Shown here: positions 2,504-12,733 of the stretch, one piece after another | Layout: each line of letters starts with the position of its first letter | Numbering within the stretch: position 1 is the stretch's first letter | The notes under the pieces: model-generated | Told to the model about the DNA's origin: nothing | What the model saw: the letters and a program-made list of their open reading frames with translations, nothing else | Database searches by the model: none | Position numbers and translations under genes: made by a program | Origin: Cyanobacteriota bacterium | GTDB lineage: Bacteria > Cyanobacteriota > Cyanobacteriia > Leptolyngbyales > Leptolyngbyaceae | Length of the DNA: 12,733 nt | Direction of reading: 5' to 3' | NCBI GenBank assembly: GCA_027482985.1 | Contig: JAIXVO010000663.1 | Coordinates: 1-12,733, forward strand

Positions 2504-4465
2504 ATGCTGATCTGTCCGCAATGTCAGTTTGATAACCCGACGACTAACAATTTTTGCCAGCAATGTGGCACAGCGCTCACTCAAAATACCTGTGCTGATT
2601 GTGGCACCCTGGTCGCGTTTGATCAGGTCAAGTGTCCGGAGTGTGGTGCCGTCGCTGGAGTGATGTGGTGGGCGGTGATCGCCTCTAAGGTGAATTCGGA
2701 TTTAACTGTTCCGATGGATTCGCGATCGCTGGGTGGCTTGAATGGCTATCTAGATTTGCAACGCCGCTATCAGATGTTGCAACCCTTTTCGACCATAAAT
2801 GCGGCGGGTGAGCAGCAAGGGCGTGTCCTCGACTGCCACCCGTTTCAGTTGTCGGTGCTGGAATCGTTGCTGGTGAAGGCATTGCAGGAAACGGATCAGG
2901 AATCTTTGAATTTACTGGATCCCAAGACGCGCACCCGCTGGGCCGATGCGATGGAAGTGTTGGGGGTGCCCGCGATCGCGTATCCCTACATTTCGTTGAA
3001 CAATCAGTTTTATCATGCCCTACCCGCCATTCATAACGCCTGGCAGTCCGATCAACACACGATTCTGCTCCTGGAAGATCGGTCAGACTATCCCAGCCTG
3101 ATGCAGATCTGGCAGGATGGGGTAAATGCGGTGCCCGTGTTGCAGGTCTTGCAATGGCTCTACGAAATGGTGGAACTGTGGCAGGCGATGGCACCCTGGC
3201 ACTGTCAACAAAGTTTGCTGATCACTGAGAATTTGCGGGTAGACCCCGAAGACCAGATTTTGTGTTTACAACGGCTGTATCTGAATGCGGCAGAAGCGCC
3301 GCTGCCGTTGCAAGAGTTGGGCCGGATGTGGCAGATTTTGCTAGCCGAATCCCAGAAAACCTATACCGAATCCATGACGCAATTACTGATGGATATAGAA
3401 ACCCAGGCATTGACCAGCGAAGATGCCGTTAAAGAGCGGATTGAAGCGATCGCCCACACCTACCAAACGGTGGCCGCACCGCTGGACATTAACATTGAGC
3501 CGGATTGGAGTAACGCCACGCCACTCACGCTGTTGGAACTGGATGACGCTCACGACAGTGGAGAGGACACCCAACTGGACAGTGACGAAATGCCGACGAT
3601 CGTCCTCCCGATGCAGTTGTTTAGCCTAGAAGAAGTGGGCCGAACTGATGTCGGACGGCAACGGGAACACAATGAAGATTACTTCGGCATTGAAACGCAC
3701 GTGGTGAAGCTGGAAAGTCCCTCTGGCAAAACCTTAAACGCCCGTAATTTATACATTCTGTGTGACGGGATGGGCGGTCATGCGGGGGGCGAAGTGGCGA
3801 GTTCGCTGGCGGTCGATACGATTCGGGCTTATTTCAAAGACCAATGGCAGCATCAGCCCCCACCGGGCACAGGGAATCCGCAATTGCCGGACATGGCACA
3901 GATGACGGAGGCCGTATTACAGGCGAATAAAGCGATTTATGACGTGAATCAGCAAAATTCCCGCTCCGGCAGCGGTCGGATGGGTACAACGCTGGTGATG
4001 GTGCTGATTCATGATACGGAAGTGGCGATCGCCCATGTGGGAGATAGTCGGCTGTACCGCTACACCCGCAAACGGGGATTAGAACAAATCACCGTGGATC
4101 ATGAAGTCGGACAGCGGGAAATTCAGCGGGGGGTTGATCCGGAAACGGCCTATTCTCGTCCCGATGCTTACCAGTTAACGCAGGCACTAGGGCCACGGGA
4201 TGAGCATTTTATTAAACCGGATGTGCAATTTTTTGAGTTGGCGGAAGATATGGTGCTGCTGCTCTGCTCGGATGGGTTAACAGACAACGACTTGCTTGAA
4301 AAACATTGGGAAACCCATGTGCAACCCCTGATTAGTTCGCAAACGAATTTAGACCAAGGGGTCGCGGAGTTGATTGACTTGGCGAATCAATACAACGGGC
4401 ATGATAATGTGACCGCGATCTCCATTCGCGCCAAAGTCCGTCCCTGTTTGGATCATTTACGCTAA
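2504..4465 (+). CDS. PP2C/PPM-type Ser/Thr phosphatase with zinc ribbons and a pseudokinase-like middle domain
   Basis: This 653-residue protein is predicted cytosolic and likely removes phosphate from Ser/Thr. Two zinc ribbons open it: C4/C7/C18/C21 and C30/C33/C44/C47. Residues about 87-330 resemble a protein kinase fold without catalytic residues. RYQMLQPF (88-95) is kinase-start-like, ILLLEDRSDYPSL (187-199) is hinge-like, and SLLITENLRVDP (237-248) aligns with the catalytic loop plus following strand. There the HRD Asp is L238, the loop Lys is I240, N243 is kept, and QRL (256-258) replaces DFG. An acidic spacer follows. The PP2C domain starts near 376 with metal and phosphate residues in place: REHNEDY (387-393), DGMGGH (D421), GDSR (D514), SDGLTD (D590) and GHDN (D634). 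The kinase gene follows after 66 bp on the same strand. The phosphatase call is firm; the pseudokinase call is inferred from motif spacing. Confidence 0.92.
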   Translation: MLICPQCQFDNPTTNNFCQQCGTALTQNTCADCGTLVAFDQVKCPECGAVAGVMWWAVIASKVNSDLTVPMDSRSLGGLNGYLDLQRRYQMLQPFSTINAAGEQQGRVLDCHPFQLSVLESLLVKALQETDQESLNLLDPKTRTRWADAMEVLGVPAIAYPYISLNNQFYHALPAIHNAWQSDQHTILLLEDRSDYPSLMQIWQDGVNAVPVLQVLQWLYEMVELWQAMAPWHCQQSLLITENLRVDPEDQILCLQRLYLNAAEAPLPLQELGRMWQILLAESQKTYTESMTQLLMDIETQALTSEDAVKERIEAIAHTYQTVAAPLDINIEPDWSNATPLTLLELDDAHDSGEDTQLDSDEMPTIVLPMQLFSLEEVGRTDVGRQREHNEDYFGIETHVVKLESPSGKTLNARNLYILCDGMGGHAGGEVASSLAVDTIRAYFKDQWQHQPPPGTGNPQLPDMAQMTEAVLQANKAIYDVNQQNSRSGSGRMGTTLVMVLIHDTEVAIAHVGDSRLYRYTRKRGLEQITVDHEVGQREIQRGVDPETAYSRPDAYQLTQALGPRDEHFIKPDVQFFELAEDMVLLLCSDGLTDNDLLEKHWETHVQPLISSQTNLDQGVAELIDLANQYNGHDNVTAISIRAKVRPCLDHLR

Positions 4466-4531: not shown

Positions 4532-5896
4532 ATGATTCGCCTGACGCTGCTCCATCCTCAATCTGGGCAACCGTTACGCCAATGGCGGTTTGACACGGAA
4601 ACCTTAATTCGAGTCGGACGTGCGCCGGGGAATGATGTGATTTTGAATAATCCGATCGTGTCTCGCTTTCATCTGGAGTTGCGAGCGATCGCTTCTGAGT
4701 CAGACAATGGCTCTGGCGCTTCCCGCTGGTTGCTGGTGAACCTTAGTTCCAATGGCACATTTATGGCGGGGGCTGCGATCGCCCAGGGCCTCATCACCGA
4801 TCAGGCGATCGTGCAATTGGCTTACGAAGGGCCTTGTTTGCAGGTGCAGATCGGCGCGCGATCGCCCCGTTCGGCGGCTCCCCCCCCCTTGCCCCTACCC
4901 GAATTGCCGCCACCCGCAGTGCCTCCACACGAGTTGCCAGCAGACCAAGCCAGCGAGGTGACTCCCGCTGTGCCCCCGCCGCTCCCGTACCCCTGCACCC
5001 ATGCGGGCAACCCTCCCGAAAATGTGTTTTGTATGCGCTGTGGACAGCCGCTTCAGGTGGAGAAGACGGTGCGCCAGTATCAGGTGTTGCGAGTGATTGG
5101 GCGCGGTGGGATGGGCACCACCTATCTGGTGTGGCATCCTGACCTGACTACGCCCAGCTTGGATCGGTCACCCCTGTTGAGTGGTGTGCCCAGCGGGAAG
5201 TTGCAAGTGTTAAAGGAGATGAATGCTGACGTGGCGCAAATTCCCAAAGCCCAGGAATTGTTTGAGCGGGAAGCCAGCACCCTGAGAACGTTGAATCATC
5301 CCGGCATTCCGCAATATTCTGACTTTTTTGTGGAAGCCGATAAGAAATACCTGGTGATGGAACTGATTCATGGGCAGGATTTGGAAAAGTGGGTGCGGCA
5401 CAAAGGACCGATTCCTGTTGCCCAAGCGATCGCCTGGATGATTCAAACCTGCGAAATTTTGGATTACTTGCATACTCGCCCCACACCCATCATTCATCGA
5501 GACATTAAGCCGGGTAATTTATTGATTCGCTCGGTGGATCAACAGGTGGTGGTGATCGATTTTGGAGCCGTGAAGGAGGCGGGCATGGCACCAGGAACGC
5601 GGATTGGCGCAGAAGGATACAGCGCCCCCGAACAAATTCAAGGTCGCCCGTTGACCCAATCGGATTTGTACGCGATCGGACCCAGTTTGGTTTATTTATT
5701 AACAGGCAAGAATCCTCTGCGTTTGCAAAAACGAGAGGATCCCTGGCATCGATTAGATTTGGAAAAGATTGAGAGTTTGCCGCGACGGTTAGCGCTCGTG
5801 ATTCAACGGGTGACAGAACCTGATCCGGGCGATCGCTATGCCACCGCCCAGGATTTAATTCGCGCCCTCAAAAGTTGTTTGGAAGCGAGTGAGTAA
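4532..5896 (+). CDS. FHA-domain Ser/Thr protein kinase with a degenerate zinc ribbon
   Basis: This 454-residue protein is likely cytosolic, with no membrane segment. The N-terminal FHA domain (about 1-105), a phosphothreonine-binding module, keeps its key residues: GR (29-30), SRFH (44-47) and NGT (74-76). A Pro-rich linker (about 110-154) leads to a zinc-ribbon remnant with C155, C167 and C170 but A158 where the second Cys is expected. The kinase domain (about 183-450) looks active: glycine loop GRGGMGTTY (190-198), VLKEM with K228, HRDIKPGN (322-329), DFG (343-345) and GYSAPEQ. A loop about 20 residues longer than usual separates the glycine loop from K228. I took the ATG at 4532 over a TTG at 4505 because AGG at 4518-4520 precedes it and the FHA strand starts at once. 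It probably shares an operon with the phosphatase, which may reverse its phosphorylation. Substrates are unknown. Confidence 0.93.
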   Translation: MIRLTLLHPQSGQPLRQWRFDTETLIRVGRAPGNDVILNNPIVSRFHLELRAIASESDNGSGASRWLLVNLSSNGTFMAGAAIAQGLITDQAIVQLAYEGPCLQVQIGARSPRSAAPPPLPLPELPPPAVPPHELPADQASEVTPAVPPPLPYPCTHAGNPPENVFCMRCGQPLQVEKTVRQYQVLRVIGRGGMGTTYLVWHPDLTTPSLDRSPLLSGVPSGKLQVLKEMNADVAQIPKAQELFEREASTLRTLNHPGIPQYSDFFVEADKKYLVMELIHGQDLEKWVRHKGPIPVAQAIAWMIQTCEILDYLHTRPTPIIHRDIKPGNLLIRSVDQQVVVIDFGAVKEAGMAPGTRIGAEGYSAPEQIQGRPLTQSDLYAIGPSLVYLLTGKNPLRLQKREDPWHRLDLEKIESLPRRLALVIQRVTEPDPGDRYATAQDLIRALKSCLEASE

Positions 5897-6521: not shown

Positions 6522-6621
6522 GGGTTTAGCATTCGGCAGTTGAACTTTGAGCGAGCGCCAAGCTTGTGGCCGAATGCCAAACCCCTACGATAGGTGGGTA
6601 AAATTTTTCTAGGAATGACCT
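6522..6621. repeat. Palindromic dispersed element, copy A (3' side of purK)
   Basis: Arms GGGTTTAGCATTCGGC (6522-6537) and GCCGAATGCCAAACCC (6569-6584) pair at 15 of 16 positions around a 31-nt spacer. Beyond the right arm the similarity to copy B continues (CTACGAT..GTGGGTA..TTTTTCT) to about 6621. That covers the purK stop codon (6609-6611) and its last three sense codons. The hairpin starts about 24 nt after the purK stop on the transcribed strand, without a U-run. Confidence 0.75.
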
Positions 6622-7781
6622 GGATACCAGATGGCTTCAATTTGCTGAATGATGGCGGCGGCTGTAGGCATTTGTTCCGCCCTCAGTAATACAGTGACAT
6701 GACCGAGTTTGCGACCAGGACGAGATTCCGTTTTACCGTACCAATGCACATGGGTGTGGGGCATGGCAGCGAGTTGCGATCGCTGAGCCGCATAGTCACT
6801 GTTAGAGGACTCGTAGCCCAATAAATTCACCATCACGGCTCCCGCCGCCTGGAGCATTGGACTACCGAGAGGAAACTCGCACACCGCTCGGAGTTGTTGT
6901 TCAAATTGCGAGGTAGTGCAGGCATCGAGGGTGAAATGCCCGGAGTTATGGGTACGGGGGGCAATTTCATTCACTAAAATCTGTCCTTCCGGAGTTAAAA
7001 ATAACTCAATCCCGACAATCCCCACGACTTGTAATTGTTCCACCACGGTACGCGCGATCGCTTCAACCTGATCCTGCACGGCGGCGGGAATGGCAGCGGG
7101 CGCAATCACCCAACGACAGACTTGATCGCGTTGTTCGGTTTCCACGACGGGATATAAAACAATCTCGCCCGTGTGCGATCGCGCCGCCATAATCGCTAGT
7201 TCCCGCTCAAACGGAATGAATGCTTCCAGAAGTAAAGGAACGGTTTCCAGGTTATCTAAGGTGGCAGTCAAAGTGGCGCGATCGCGCAGAATGAAGGTGC
7301 CCTGTCCGTCGTAGCCATGCCGTCGAGTTTTGAGCACGATCGGAAACTCGGTGGGAGGGTGCGATCGCAACTCAGCCGCAGTGACCGCCTTGAACGCGGG
7401 GACAGGTAGCCCCACAGCCTGTAAAAACGATCGCTGCTCAAATTTGTCCAGAATGGGCGCTAATGCCTCTAACCGAGGTCGAAAACACACGCCTTGTACC
7501 GCCAGTTGTTGTAGGGCTGGCAAATCGACGAATTCATTCTCAAAGGTAATGACATCACAGTCAGCCGCCAGTTTCGCAGTCGCGGCAGCATCCGCCACAG
7601 GAGCCAGGATCGTCTGTGCCGCGATCGCTACCGCTGGATCAGTTGCGGCAGGCGTTTGAATCACCAGTTCGATCCCTAACTGCGTCGCTGCATCGGCCAT
7701 CATCCACGCCAATTGCCCCCCCCCAATCACGCCAACTCGACGGATCGCGATCGGGGGTTGGGCAGCACTAGGTTCAAGCAT
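6609..7781 (-). CDS. purK: N5-carboxyaminoimidazole ribonucleotide synthetase
   Basis: PurK uses ATP and bicarbonate to carboxylate aminoimidazole ribonucleotide in de novo purine synthesis; PurE, not in this window, then uses the product. It is a cytosolic ATP-grasp enzyme. The 390-residue protein shows the N-terminal pre-ATP-grasp motif GVIGGGQLAWMM (17-28), the ATP-grasp lysine region VLKTRRHGYDGQG (149-161), EAFIPFERELA (186-196), the metal/ATP segment GIELFLTPEGQILVNEIAPRTHNSGH (257-282, key residues E259, E272 and N279), and the C-terminal GKTESRPGRKLGHV (349-362). The ATG at 7781 has no clear Shine-Dalgarno, but no other in-frame Met occurs before the first motif. It is flanked on both sides by copies of the same palindromic repeat, and its last codons (GHS-stop) fall in the repeat-like sequence. 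It appears to be a single-gene unit. Confidence 0.95.
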   Translation of the reverse strand: MLEPSAAQPPIAIRRVGVIGGGQLAWMMADAATQLGIELVIQTPAATDPAVAIAAQTILAPVADAAATAKLAADCDVITFENEFVDLPALQQLAVQGVCFRPRLEALAPILDKFEQRSFLQAVGLPVPAFKAVTAAELRSHPPTEFPIVLKTRRHGYDGQGTFILRDRATLTATLDNLETVPLLLEAFIPFERELAIMAARSHTGEIVLYPVVETEQRDQVCRWVIAPAAIPAAVQDQVEAIARTVVEQLQVVGIVGIELFLTPEGQILVNEIAPRTHNSGHFTLDACTTSQFEQQLRAVCEFPLGSPMLQAAGAVMVNLLGYESSNSDYAAQRSQLAAMPHTHVHWYGKTESRPGRKLGHVTVLLRAEQMPTAAAIIQQIEAIWYPGHS

Positions 7782-11801: not shown

Positions 11802-12733
11802 TCACAGTGAAGCACGTTGGGGGGTTAAGTCAATCCCCAACACTTGAGTAAAGGCTCCCCTCGCCTGAGTCACGCCAATTTGCCGTTGCGCCGACTCGAT
11901 CATAGGCCGCCGCAGGCTGACCACTATGAATTGGGCCAGTTGGGCTTGCTGTTTGACCATTCTAGCTAATCGCTCTACGTTTGCTCCGTCGAGGAACATA
12001 TCGACTTCATCGAAGGCGTAGAAGGGCGAGGGGCGGTAGCGTTGGAGGGCAAAGATGAAACTTAAAGCGGTCAGCGATTTTTCGCCCCCGGACATGGAAG
12101 CCAGCCGTTGGACGGGTTTGCCTTTGGGGTGGGCGATCAGGTTCAAGCCGCCATTAAACGGATCTTGGGGATCGTCGAGTTGGAGGCGACCGTCACCATC
12201 CGAGAGGACGGCAAAGATGGCTTGAAAGTTTTCGTTGACGGCATCAAAGGCTTCCATGAAGGCGCGCTGCCGCAGGGTGGTGAAGTTTTCGATCCGGAGC
12301 AGCAGTTCGGTGCGTTCTTCTTCCAGGGTGTGCAGTTTGTCGGTGAGTTCGTCCAGGCGGGCCTGGGTGCGATCGTATTCTTCCAGCGCCAGCATATTCA
12401 CGGGTTCCATCGCCTGGAGTCGTTTTTGCAGCGATCGCAATTCCTGTTGCAACTGCTCTAATCCCATCTGTTCCGGCACTTCCGGCAGGGGATCAGGGAG
12501 TTCCAGTTGTTGGGACTGGAGTTGCAGTTGCAGCGCCGCCAGTTGCTCCCGACGAGTCGCCTGAGTTTCCTGCACTTTTTGCCGATCCCATTCCCGCTGT
12601 TGCTGCTGGAGTTGCTGTTCCCGCAGTTGCCGCTCGACGCGATCGCGCTGGGTCTTCTCCGATCCCAATCGTTGTTCTAACCCCACCTGGGTCGATCTCG
12701 TCTCGGTCGAGCTCACCGCCCGCATGCTGGCGA
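11802..12733 (-). CDS. smc: Chromosome segregation protein SMC (partial, N-terminus beyond right edge)
   Basis: SMC dimers form the ATP-driven condensin that organises and segregates the chromosome. This is the C-terminal portion of about 310 residues: Gln/Arg/Glu-rich coiled coil, then [11 protein letters not shown] at the return into the head domain. The ABC signature [19 protein letters not shown] follows, then Walker [16 protein letters not shown], and the [17 protein letters not shown] segment near the end. It ends at a TGA at 11802. The frame is open to the window edge, and the ATG at 12725 is internal, not a start. The N-terminal Walker A, hinge and most of the coiled coil lie outside. 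The PRC-barrel gene starts 43 bp downstream on the same strand. The family assignment is secure. Confidence 0.96.

Follow-up and report, generated by a model that had tools for sequence, protein, structure and literature searches.

A gene in a Leptolyngbyaceae genome encodes a PP2C phosphatase that carries, between a double zinc ribbon and its catalytic domain, a region predicted to adopt a protein kinase fold without kinase chemistry. The gene lies at 2504..4465 on the forward strand of contig JAIXVO010000663.1, within the 12,733 nucleotides that were analysed as a whole (the window), and specifies 653 residues from an ATG start, from which residues are numbered; an alternative start, TTG, lies at 2489. 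All features of this gene given below are on the forward strand. Structure prediction and residue conservation agree in supporting a pseudokinase-like domain at residues 80-325 (2741..3478) fused to PP2C, as proposed in an initial annotation made from the DNA letters. That annotation gave the span as 2762-3490, equivalent to residues 87-329; the domain itself stands, and its borders move to the region that was modelled as one fold.

The phosphatase family, widespread in cyanobacteria though little studied, is already known and named, and what is new, so far as we found, is the pseudokinase in a new architecture. The window protein is a full-length member of NF011149 (PRK14559, serine/threonine phosphatase), matching over residues 1-650 with 830 bits (E 1.3e-249; curated cut-off 374). 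The family name covers the phosphatase alone, and the middle region has no Pfam domain. Related genomes match NF011149 at E 0.001 in 57 of 58 cases and exceed its cut-off in 53, while among 14 named control genomes six match and one exceeds it. Our literature search, which covered few subscription papers, found no description of a pseudokinase in this phosphatase, no occurrence of the PRK14559 accession and no joint treatment of pseudokinases, cyanobacteria and PP2C phosphatases. In the available part of one source, DZR-PP2C proteins are on record for Cyanobacteriota, PP2Cs with Pkinase domains belong mainly to Pseudomonadota, and a pseudokinase is not mentioned with these PP2Cs (PMC12088040).

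The middle domain is predicted to adopt a protein kinase fold

The middle domain was modelled alone with AF2, since PP2C accounted for the listed fold-search matches of the full-length model. Residues 80-325 gave a predicted local distance difference test score (pLDDT) of 92.5 and a predicted template modelling score (pTM) of 0.89. Protein kinases made up 50 of the 50 matches listed in each of two PDB structure searches with this model, and these matches spanned model residues 4-244 and hence both lobes. By prediction, then, the domain has the N-lobe and C-lobe arrangement of a protein kinase, including the C-lobe whose absence had been named in advance as the result that would speak against the idea. 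PknG was the best VIA match, tied with rows within 1 Z. A viral structure library gave one match at E <=0.001; the rows listed were mostly viral kinases, and no closer relative was found there.

Catalytic motifs are lost while former active-site positions are kept

Conservation was read from two alignments. The first contains 81 sequences, the window protein and 80 loci; these loci are the 80 highest-ranking among 518 relatives found with a full-length query and are therefore biased towards full-length, domain-bearing members. The second contains 196 rows, comprising 116 protein matches and the 80 loci, among which near-duplicates are possible. Correspondence to kinase active-site positions was inferred from motif register and the secondary structure of the model, not from coordinate superposition. 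The motifs lie where the initial annotation had located them (RYQMLQPF at 88-95, ILLLEDRSDYPSL at 187-199 and SLLITENLRVDPEDQI at 237-252), and it had also placed N243, L238, I240 and QRL (256-258) correctly.

A glycine loop is absent before the putative beta-3 equivalent, residues 108-113 (V-L-D-C-H-P; 2825..2842), which includes a model strand at 108-110. D110, at about the position of the beta-3 Lys, is Asp in 195 of 196 rows, and P113 is Pro in 195, each with one gap. The hinge equivalent (residues 187-194, ILLLEDRS; 3062..3085) overlaps a model strand at 185-190, and here E191 is kept in 71 and R193 in 79 of the 81 sequences.

The catalytic-loop equivalent, residues 236-245 (QSLLITENLR; 3209..3238), retains only the Asn of H-R-D-x-K-x-x-N-L. 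This residue, N243, is Asn in 81/81 sequences and 195/196 rows, the remaining row having Ser, which bears out the earlier statement that the loop Asn is kept. Position 238, that of the HRD Asp, is Leu (177), Val (16) or Ile (3) in the 196 rows, and Asp was not among the residues counted there in the 81 sequences. Position 240, that of the loop Lys, is acidic in most sequences of both alignments (E 50, D 20, K 2 of 81). At the DFG position, QRL (3269..3277) is highly conserved (Q 171, R 171 and L 193 of 196), and no Asp occurs among the seven commonest residues at 256, which account for 195 of the 196 rows. Fixity thus extends to QRL, nearly, and to position 238 in the sense of Leu, Val or Ile; I240, which had been considered alongside them, is variable. 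Beyond this, the activation segment is nearly absent, with about ten residues between Y259 and the alpha-F equivalent, a helix in the model (residues 269-283; 3308..3352) that holds L-G-x-x-W (L272 81/81, G273 80/81, W276 81/81). The initial annotation mentioned neither this shortening nor D110.

With Asp, Leu/Val/Ile and mostly Gln replacing the beta-3 Lys, HRD Asp and DFG Asp, the domain does not have the residues of an active Hanks-type kinase. It has instead what characterises a bacterial pseudokinase, a predicted kinase fold in which each of the three catalytic motifs is degraded. Model and alignment together support a PP2C fusion partner that has the fold but not the chemistry of a kinase. 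Over the 80 loci the domain drifts more than the flanking domains (median identity to the window protein 0.39; ribbon 0.55, PP2C 0.70), yet 33 of its 246 columns show a fixity of 95% or more; constraint without chemistry is as expected for a pseudokinase.

The flanking domains were readily recognised. Pfam models found in the whole protein were of zinc ribbon type (best DZR, 4-48) and of PP2C or SpoIIE type (~400-643), with no match in the middle up to E 10; the middle domain scanned alone gave one chance match, SAM_Exu. The double zinc ribbon (residues 4-48; 2513..2647) scored 38.9 bits against DZR (cut-off 27.3), and each of its eight Cys residues (C4, C7, C18, C21, C30, C33, C44 and C47) is present in 81/81 sequences. 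The PP2C (PPM) domain occupies residues ~372-646 (3617..4441) by its PP2C_2 match and by structure, the best structure matches of this part of the full-length model including tPphA, PstP and Stp1. N390, E391, D392, D421, G422, D514, D590, D634 and N635 are identical in 81/81 sequences, and among these D392, D421, D514, D590 and D634 are presumably the metal-binding residues. The PP2C active site therefore looks intact, as judged from the alignment.

The domain recurs in a second PP2C family

The same genome contains two further PP2C genes, L031 and L032, with similar N-terminal halves, and the domain profile matches both (E 4.8e-11 and 5.7e-9, respectively). A search with the L032 region returned 538 relatives, 120 of them listed; 117 were aligned, leaving out P0049, P0055 and P0093, whose Pfam column is without PP2C. 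The 121-row set of this second family contains the own-genome protein twice. Its profile matched the window domain with a probability of 98.1% (E 1e-13). Both families share RY...LD..P, with D in 118 and P in 121 of the 121 second-family rows, and SLL...N(L/I)RV, with S and N each in 121. The paralogues L031-L034 carry a domain of this kind, preceded by a Cys knuckle, and, by eye, likely a C-terminal membrane helix.

L031 also reached the 4-Cys prefix kinase model NF045510 (24.4 bits, cut-off 24), which did not match the window protein and gave 14.2 bits with the kinase encoded next to it. By a strict pattern, a knuckle is present in 5 of 25 own-genome kinase rows, two of which are one gene and another of which is the neighbouring kinase; on inspection by eye, L122 and L137 are similar in this respect. 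The prefix of L031 and the knuckle kinases of the genome point to a zinc-knuckle kinase that was fused to PP2C and later died, and we regard this as the likely origin of the domain. Among the Pfam kinases of this genome, L135-L138 (47.8-64.1 bits) have broken loops (HGNLKPDN, HQQIKPTH, HGNLTPEN and HHHVSPQN) and, by these motifs, are likely further pseudokinases. In 70 of 194 cyanobacterial genomes the domain profile found a match, and in 63 of these the match was strong (E <1e-29, frames of 535-829 codons).

The gene is often paired with that of an FHA kinase

The adjacent gene (4532..5896, forward strand; longest open reading frame from 4505) encodes an FHA domain, one zinc knuckle and a canonical kinase (HRDIKPGN, DFG), with Pfam matches to FHA and Pkinase. 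Its Pfam kinase match begins at model position 24, a late start that, judged by eye, reflects an insert of about a dozen residues between glycine loop and beta-3 Lys. This kinase lies downstream on the same strand in 65 of the 80 loci, within 400 bases in 63, and HRD and DFG are intact in 65/65. Adjacency required a blast score >300, and pair-less loci had 2.8-6 kb downstream, where a contig end could hide some pairs. Among the 25 relatives that hold the kinase (E 1e-80), it lies within 400 bases of the phosphatase in 20, within 1.2 kb in two and on another contig in three. It is present in 23/40 genomes with the domain versus 2/13 without it (Fisher P 0.011), or 15/27 versus 2/10 when counted by genus (P 0.073), with kinship not removed in either comparison.

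A proposed regulatory role

These data allow us to propose that residues 80-325 are a pseudokinase derived from a zinc-knuckle Hanks-type kinase, forming the regulatory middle of the PP2C protein and acting as a nucleotide-independent docking and allosteric module, a proposal to which we give roughly even chances. In this model the kinase fold would no longer have a glycine loop, beta-3 Lys, HRD Asp, DFG or activation segment and would now work nucleotide-free, binding a partner or substrate, with the adjacent FHA-zinc knuckle-kinase as the first, though not the sole, candidate partner. The bound state would be relayed to PP2C, perhaps together with the redox or zinc state of the ribbons. Prediction and alignment support the fold, the catalytic loss, the intact PP2C site, the frequent gene pair and the second family; docking, the identity of the partner and signal transfer are what we infer. 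In the available parts of the sources, bacterial pseudokinases such as EssB are reported to act by scaffolding (PMC12599244), and PP2C regulatory domains by docking on the catalytic domain at its switch helices (PMC5468089).

The initial annotation had suggested a scaffold, a nucleotide sensor or a decoy for the neighbouring kinase. Given that the nucleotide contacts are gone, we favour a role in docking and allostery, and consider a nucleotide sensor the least likely of the three for the same reason. The decoy gains from a gene pair kept in 65/80 loci; as a sole function it was set aside, since no match to that kinase at E 1e-60 was present in 9 of the 15 pair-less genomes.

A wider and distinctly tentative reading is that a pseudokinase family for which we found no annotation provides the regulatory part shared by two or more PP2C families of cyanobacteria: one of these is soluble and has a double zinc ribbon, and another contains a membrane segment. 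Here a zinc-knuckle kinase, captured by a phosphatase and killed, would have retained its loop Asn, acquired a fixed Asp at beta-3 and become the receptor for a living kinase and for substrates; the FHA kinase that is often adjacent would be the living kinase recognised, and the gene pair would set the phosphorylation state.

The available part of a recent review describes bacterial pseudokinases as largely unexplored by experiment (PMC12599244). Target choice by bacterial PP2Cs is often unclear as well. The domain occurs in 40/58 related genomes, often beside a motif-intact kinase gene, which offers a tractable system in Nostoc and Anabaena for non-catalytic kinase folds, with domain-less relatives as natural controls. 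It also provides a function hypothesis for ~250 unannotated residues of a family named by its phosphatase alone.

Counter-evidence and alternative explanations

Several results weigh against the proposed docking pseudokinase, beginning with its partner and its coupling to PP2C. The neighbouring kinase has no match at E 1e-60 in the 9 pair-less genomes noted above and none at E 1e-80 in 33 of 58 relatives, which argues against a fixed pair, and two genomes (G042 and G053) hold the FHA kinase close to a PP2C that has no such domain. The full-length model reached a pTM of 0.55, a value too low to place the middle domain relative to PP2C. The catalytic-loop Asn is replaced by Cys in L031.

This last substitution also counts against a repurposed cleft, in which D110, N243 and R245 would bind a small molecule or nucleotide and so gate PP2C. 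D110, P113 and N243 are near-invariant in the 196 rows and recur in the second family, which exceeds what a plain scaffold would need, and the zinc ribbon likewise suggests a sensing head. However, the glycine loop, beta-3 Lys, DFG and metal-binding Asp are all missing, and the kept residues, whose positions derive from register, could merely shape the loop. We consider such a sensor unlikely.

We hold in similarly low regard an inert spacer, a folded relic that would only dimerise or separate ribbon and phosphatase and take no part in signalling. Its faster divergence relative to the ribbon and PP2C would suit this, as would the phosphatases that do without it. A strong domain match (E <=1e-46) is present in 40 of the 53 relatives that exceed the NF011149 cut-off and absent from the other 13, although two of the latter genomes are less than 95% complete (G034 69%, G044 93%). 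In the seven of these 13 that were read (G009, G012, G016, G024, G042, G045 and G049) the protein starts shortly before PP2C, with neither ribbon nor pseudokinase and often with a shared lead-in, 'PTIVLPMQL'. Such orthologues show that the phosphatase can manage without the pseudokinase, a further point against our proposal. The pseudokinase is a removable, optional module, which may have been lost or gained; in G041 domain and PP2C are on separate, overlapping frames. Against a spacer, the strictly kept former active-site residues and the presence in two PP2C families imply a specific role. The orthologous PP2Cs without zinc ribbon and pseudokinase are L171-L175, L177 and L178, and L175 (G042) still has the FHA kinase nearby.

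It is improbable, in our view, that the domain is an alpha/beta fold of separate origin whose model is merely kinase-like. Template modelling scores are modest, at about 0.45, which weighs against our own proposal. Profile searches for kinase similarity came back empty, an outcome that the initial annotation had named as speaking against its idea and that favours a separate origin: none of 48 members scanned matched a Pfam protein kinase family, the domain profile had no match among PDB sequences, and NCBIfam gave no protein kinase similarity in the middle domain. The single match to an aminoglycoside kinase model (APH_6_hur) among the 48 members was at chance level (E 0.074), and the window protein itself had only chance matches among PDB sequences, to a thioredoxin-like protein. 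DUF7668 was the commonest Pfam match of the middle domain (10/48 members, best E 0.00023).

The domain profile was built from 47 of the 80 loci, mutually <80% identical (48 qualified and one TTG-start fragment was dropped). It was compared by hhalign with a set made up of 22 kinase domains from this genome together with homologues of the neighbouring kinase. The score of 24.1 (P 0.012) is borderline, with one of 40 column shuffles higher at 32.1, the rest at <=19.4 and the reversed profile at 19.6; the second-family region gave nothing above its own shuffles against kinases. The sequence link to kinases is thus weak, and the fold rests on the structure model, with which the sequence agrees without proving it. 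Despite this, every listed structure match is a kinase, over model residues 4-244, the hhalign path keeps the expected motif register (HP.I, with 'LPAIHNAWQ' on 'HPQIPSLLDYF', then the hinge, a long helix and N-L on N-M), and the paralogue L031 has the kinase 4-Cys prefix, all of which argue for a kinase relative.

Altered catalysis, as in the AMPylating SelO or glutamylating SidJ, is very improbable from the motifs. Changed motifs need not abolish the activity of a kinase fold, but SelO retains the beta-3 Lys and DYG and SidJ retains VAVK and DLG, in the available part of the review, and here both motifs are gone (PMC12599244).

Comparison with known systems

The bacterial Ser/Thr pseudokinases covered in the available part of that review (EssB/YukC, MviN, ActPs, CP1, DYD and DLHK) share with the window domain degraded ATP-binding, catalytic and metal motifs on a kinase fold, and EssB/YukC also resembles it in having a degraded glycine loop and a short activation loop (PMC12599244). 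The term PP2C is absent from the review, whereas the window domain sits in a PP2C protein. CP1, the cyanobacterial and proteobacterial pseudokinase, is tied there to COG3899; CP1 identity was set aside, since the window protein's above-cut-off Pfam models are zinc ribbon and PP2C only, with no COG3899 ATPase link.

In PknG and the 4-Cys-prefix kinases such as SpkB, too, a kinase fold comes after a head that is Cys-rich or holds zinc; these kinases are active, whereas in the window protein the kinase fold is dead, by its motifs, and is followed by PP2C. The head of PknG binds metal. The Cys-rich N-terminus of SpkB is a reported target of redox changes, in the available part of the source (PMC10651672), and by analogy with SpkB the Cys head of the window protein may possibly provide a redox or zinc input.

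The PP2C-kinase fusions of Pseudomonas and other bacteria also join a PP2C and a kinase fold in one chain; as far as the available part of that report goes, PP2C is N-terminal in them and its partner is described as a kinase, whereas in the window protein a dead kinase-like domain precedes PP2C and lies behind a zinc ribbon (PMC1262709). HltA, a cyanobacterial GAF-PP2C, is similarly a widespread PP2C with an N-terminal regulatory domain. According to the available part of its description, it is a Group II RsbU-like PP2C with GAF, whereas the window PP2C is nearest to PP2Cs such as tPphA, PstP and Stp1 and has a pseudokinase (PMC9430166). An HltA-type identity was set aside on account of the other PP2C group and the GAF domain.

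Surrounding genes

A TIGR04282 glycosyltransferase (1349-2011), PurK (6609-7781) and the C-terminal portion of an SMC protein of chromosome segregation (11802-12725), all on the reverse strand, are ordinary neighbours. Positions 1-1290, also on the reverse strand, hold by eye the first 430 residues of a DNA polymerase III gamma/tau-like protein, which at the border of the window ends in a repeat rich in Pro, Gln and Thr.
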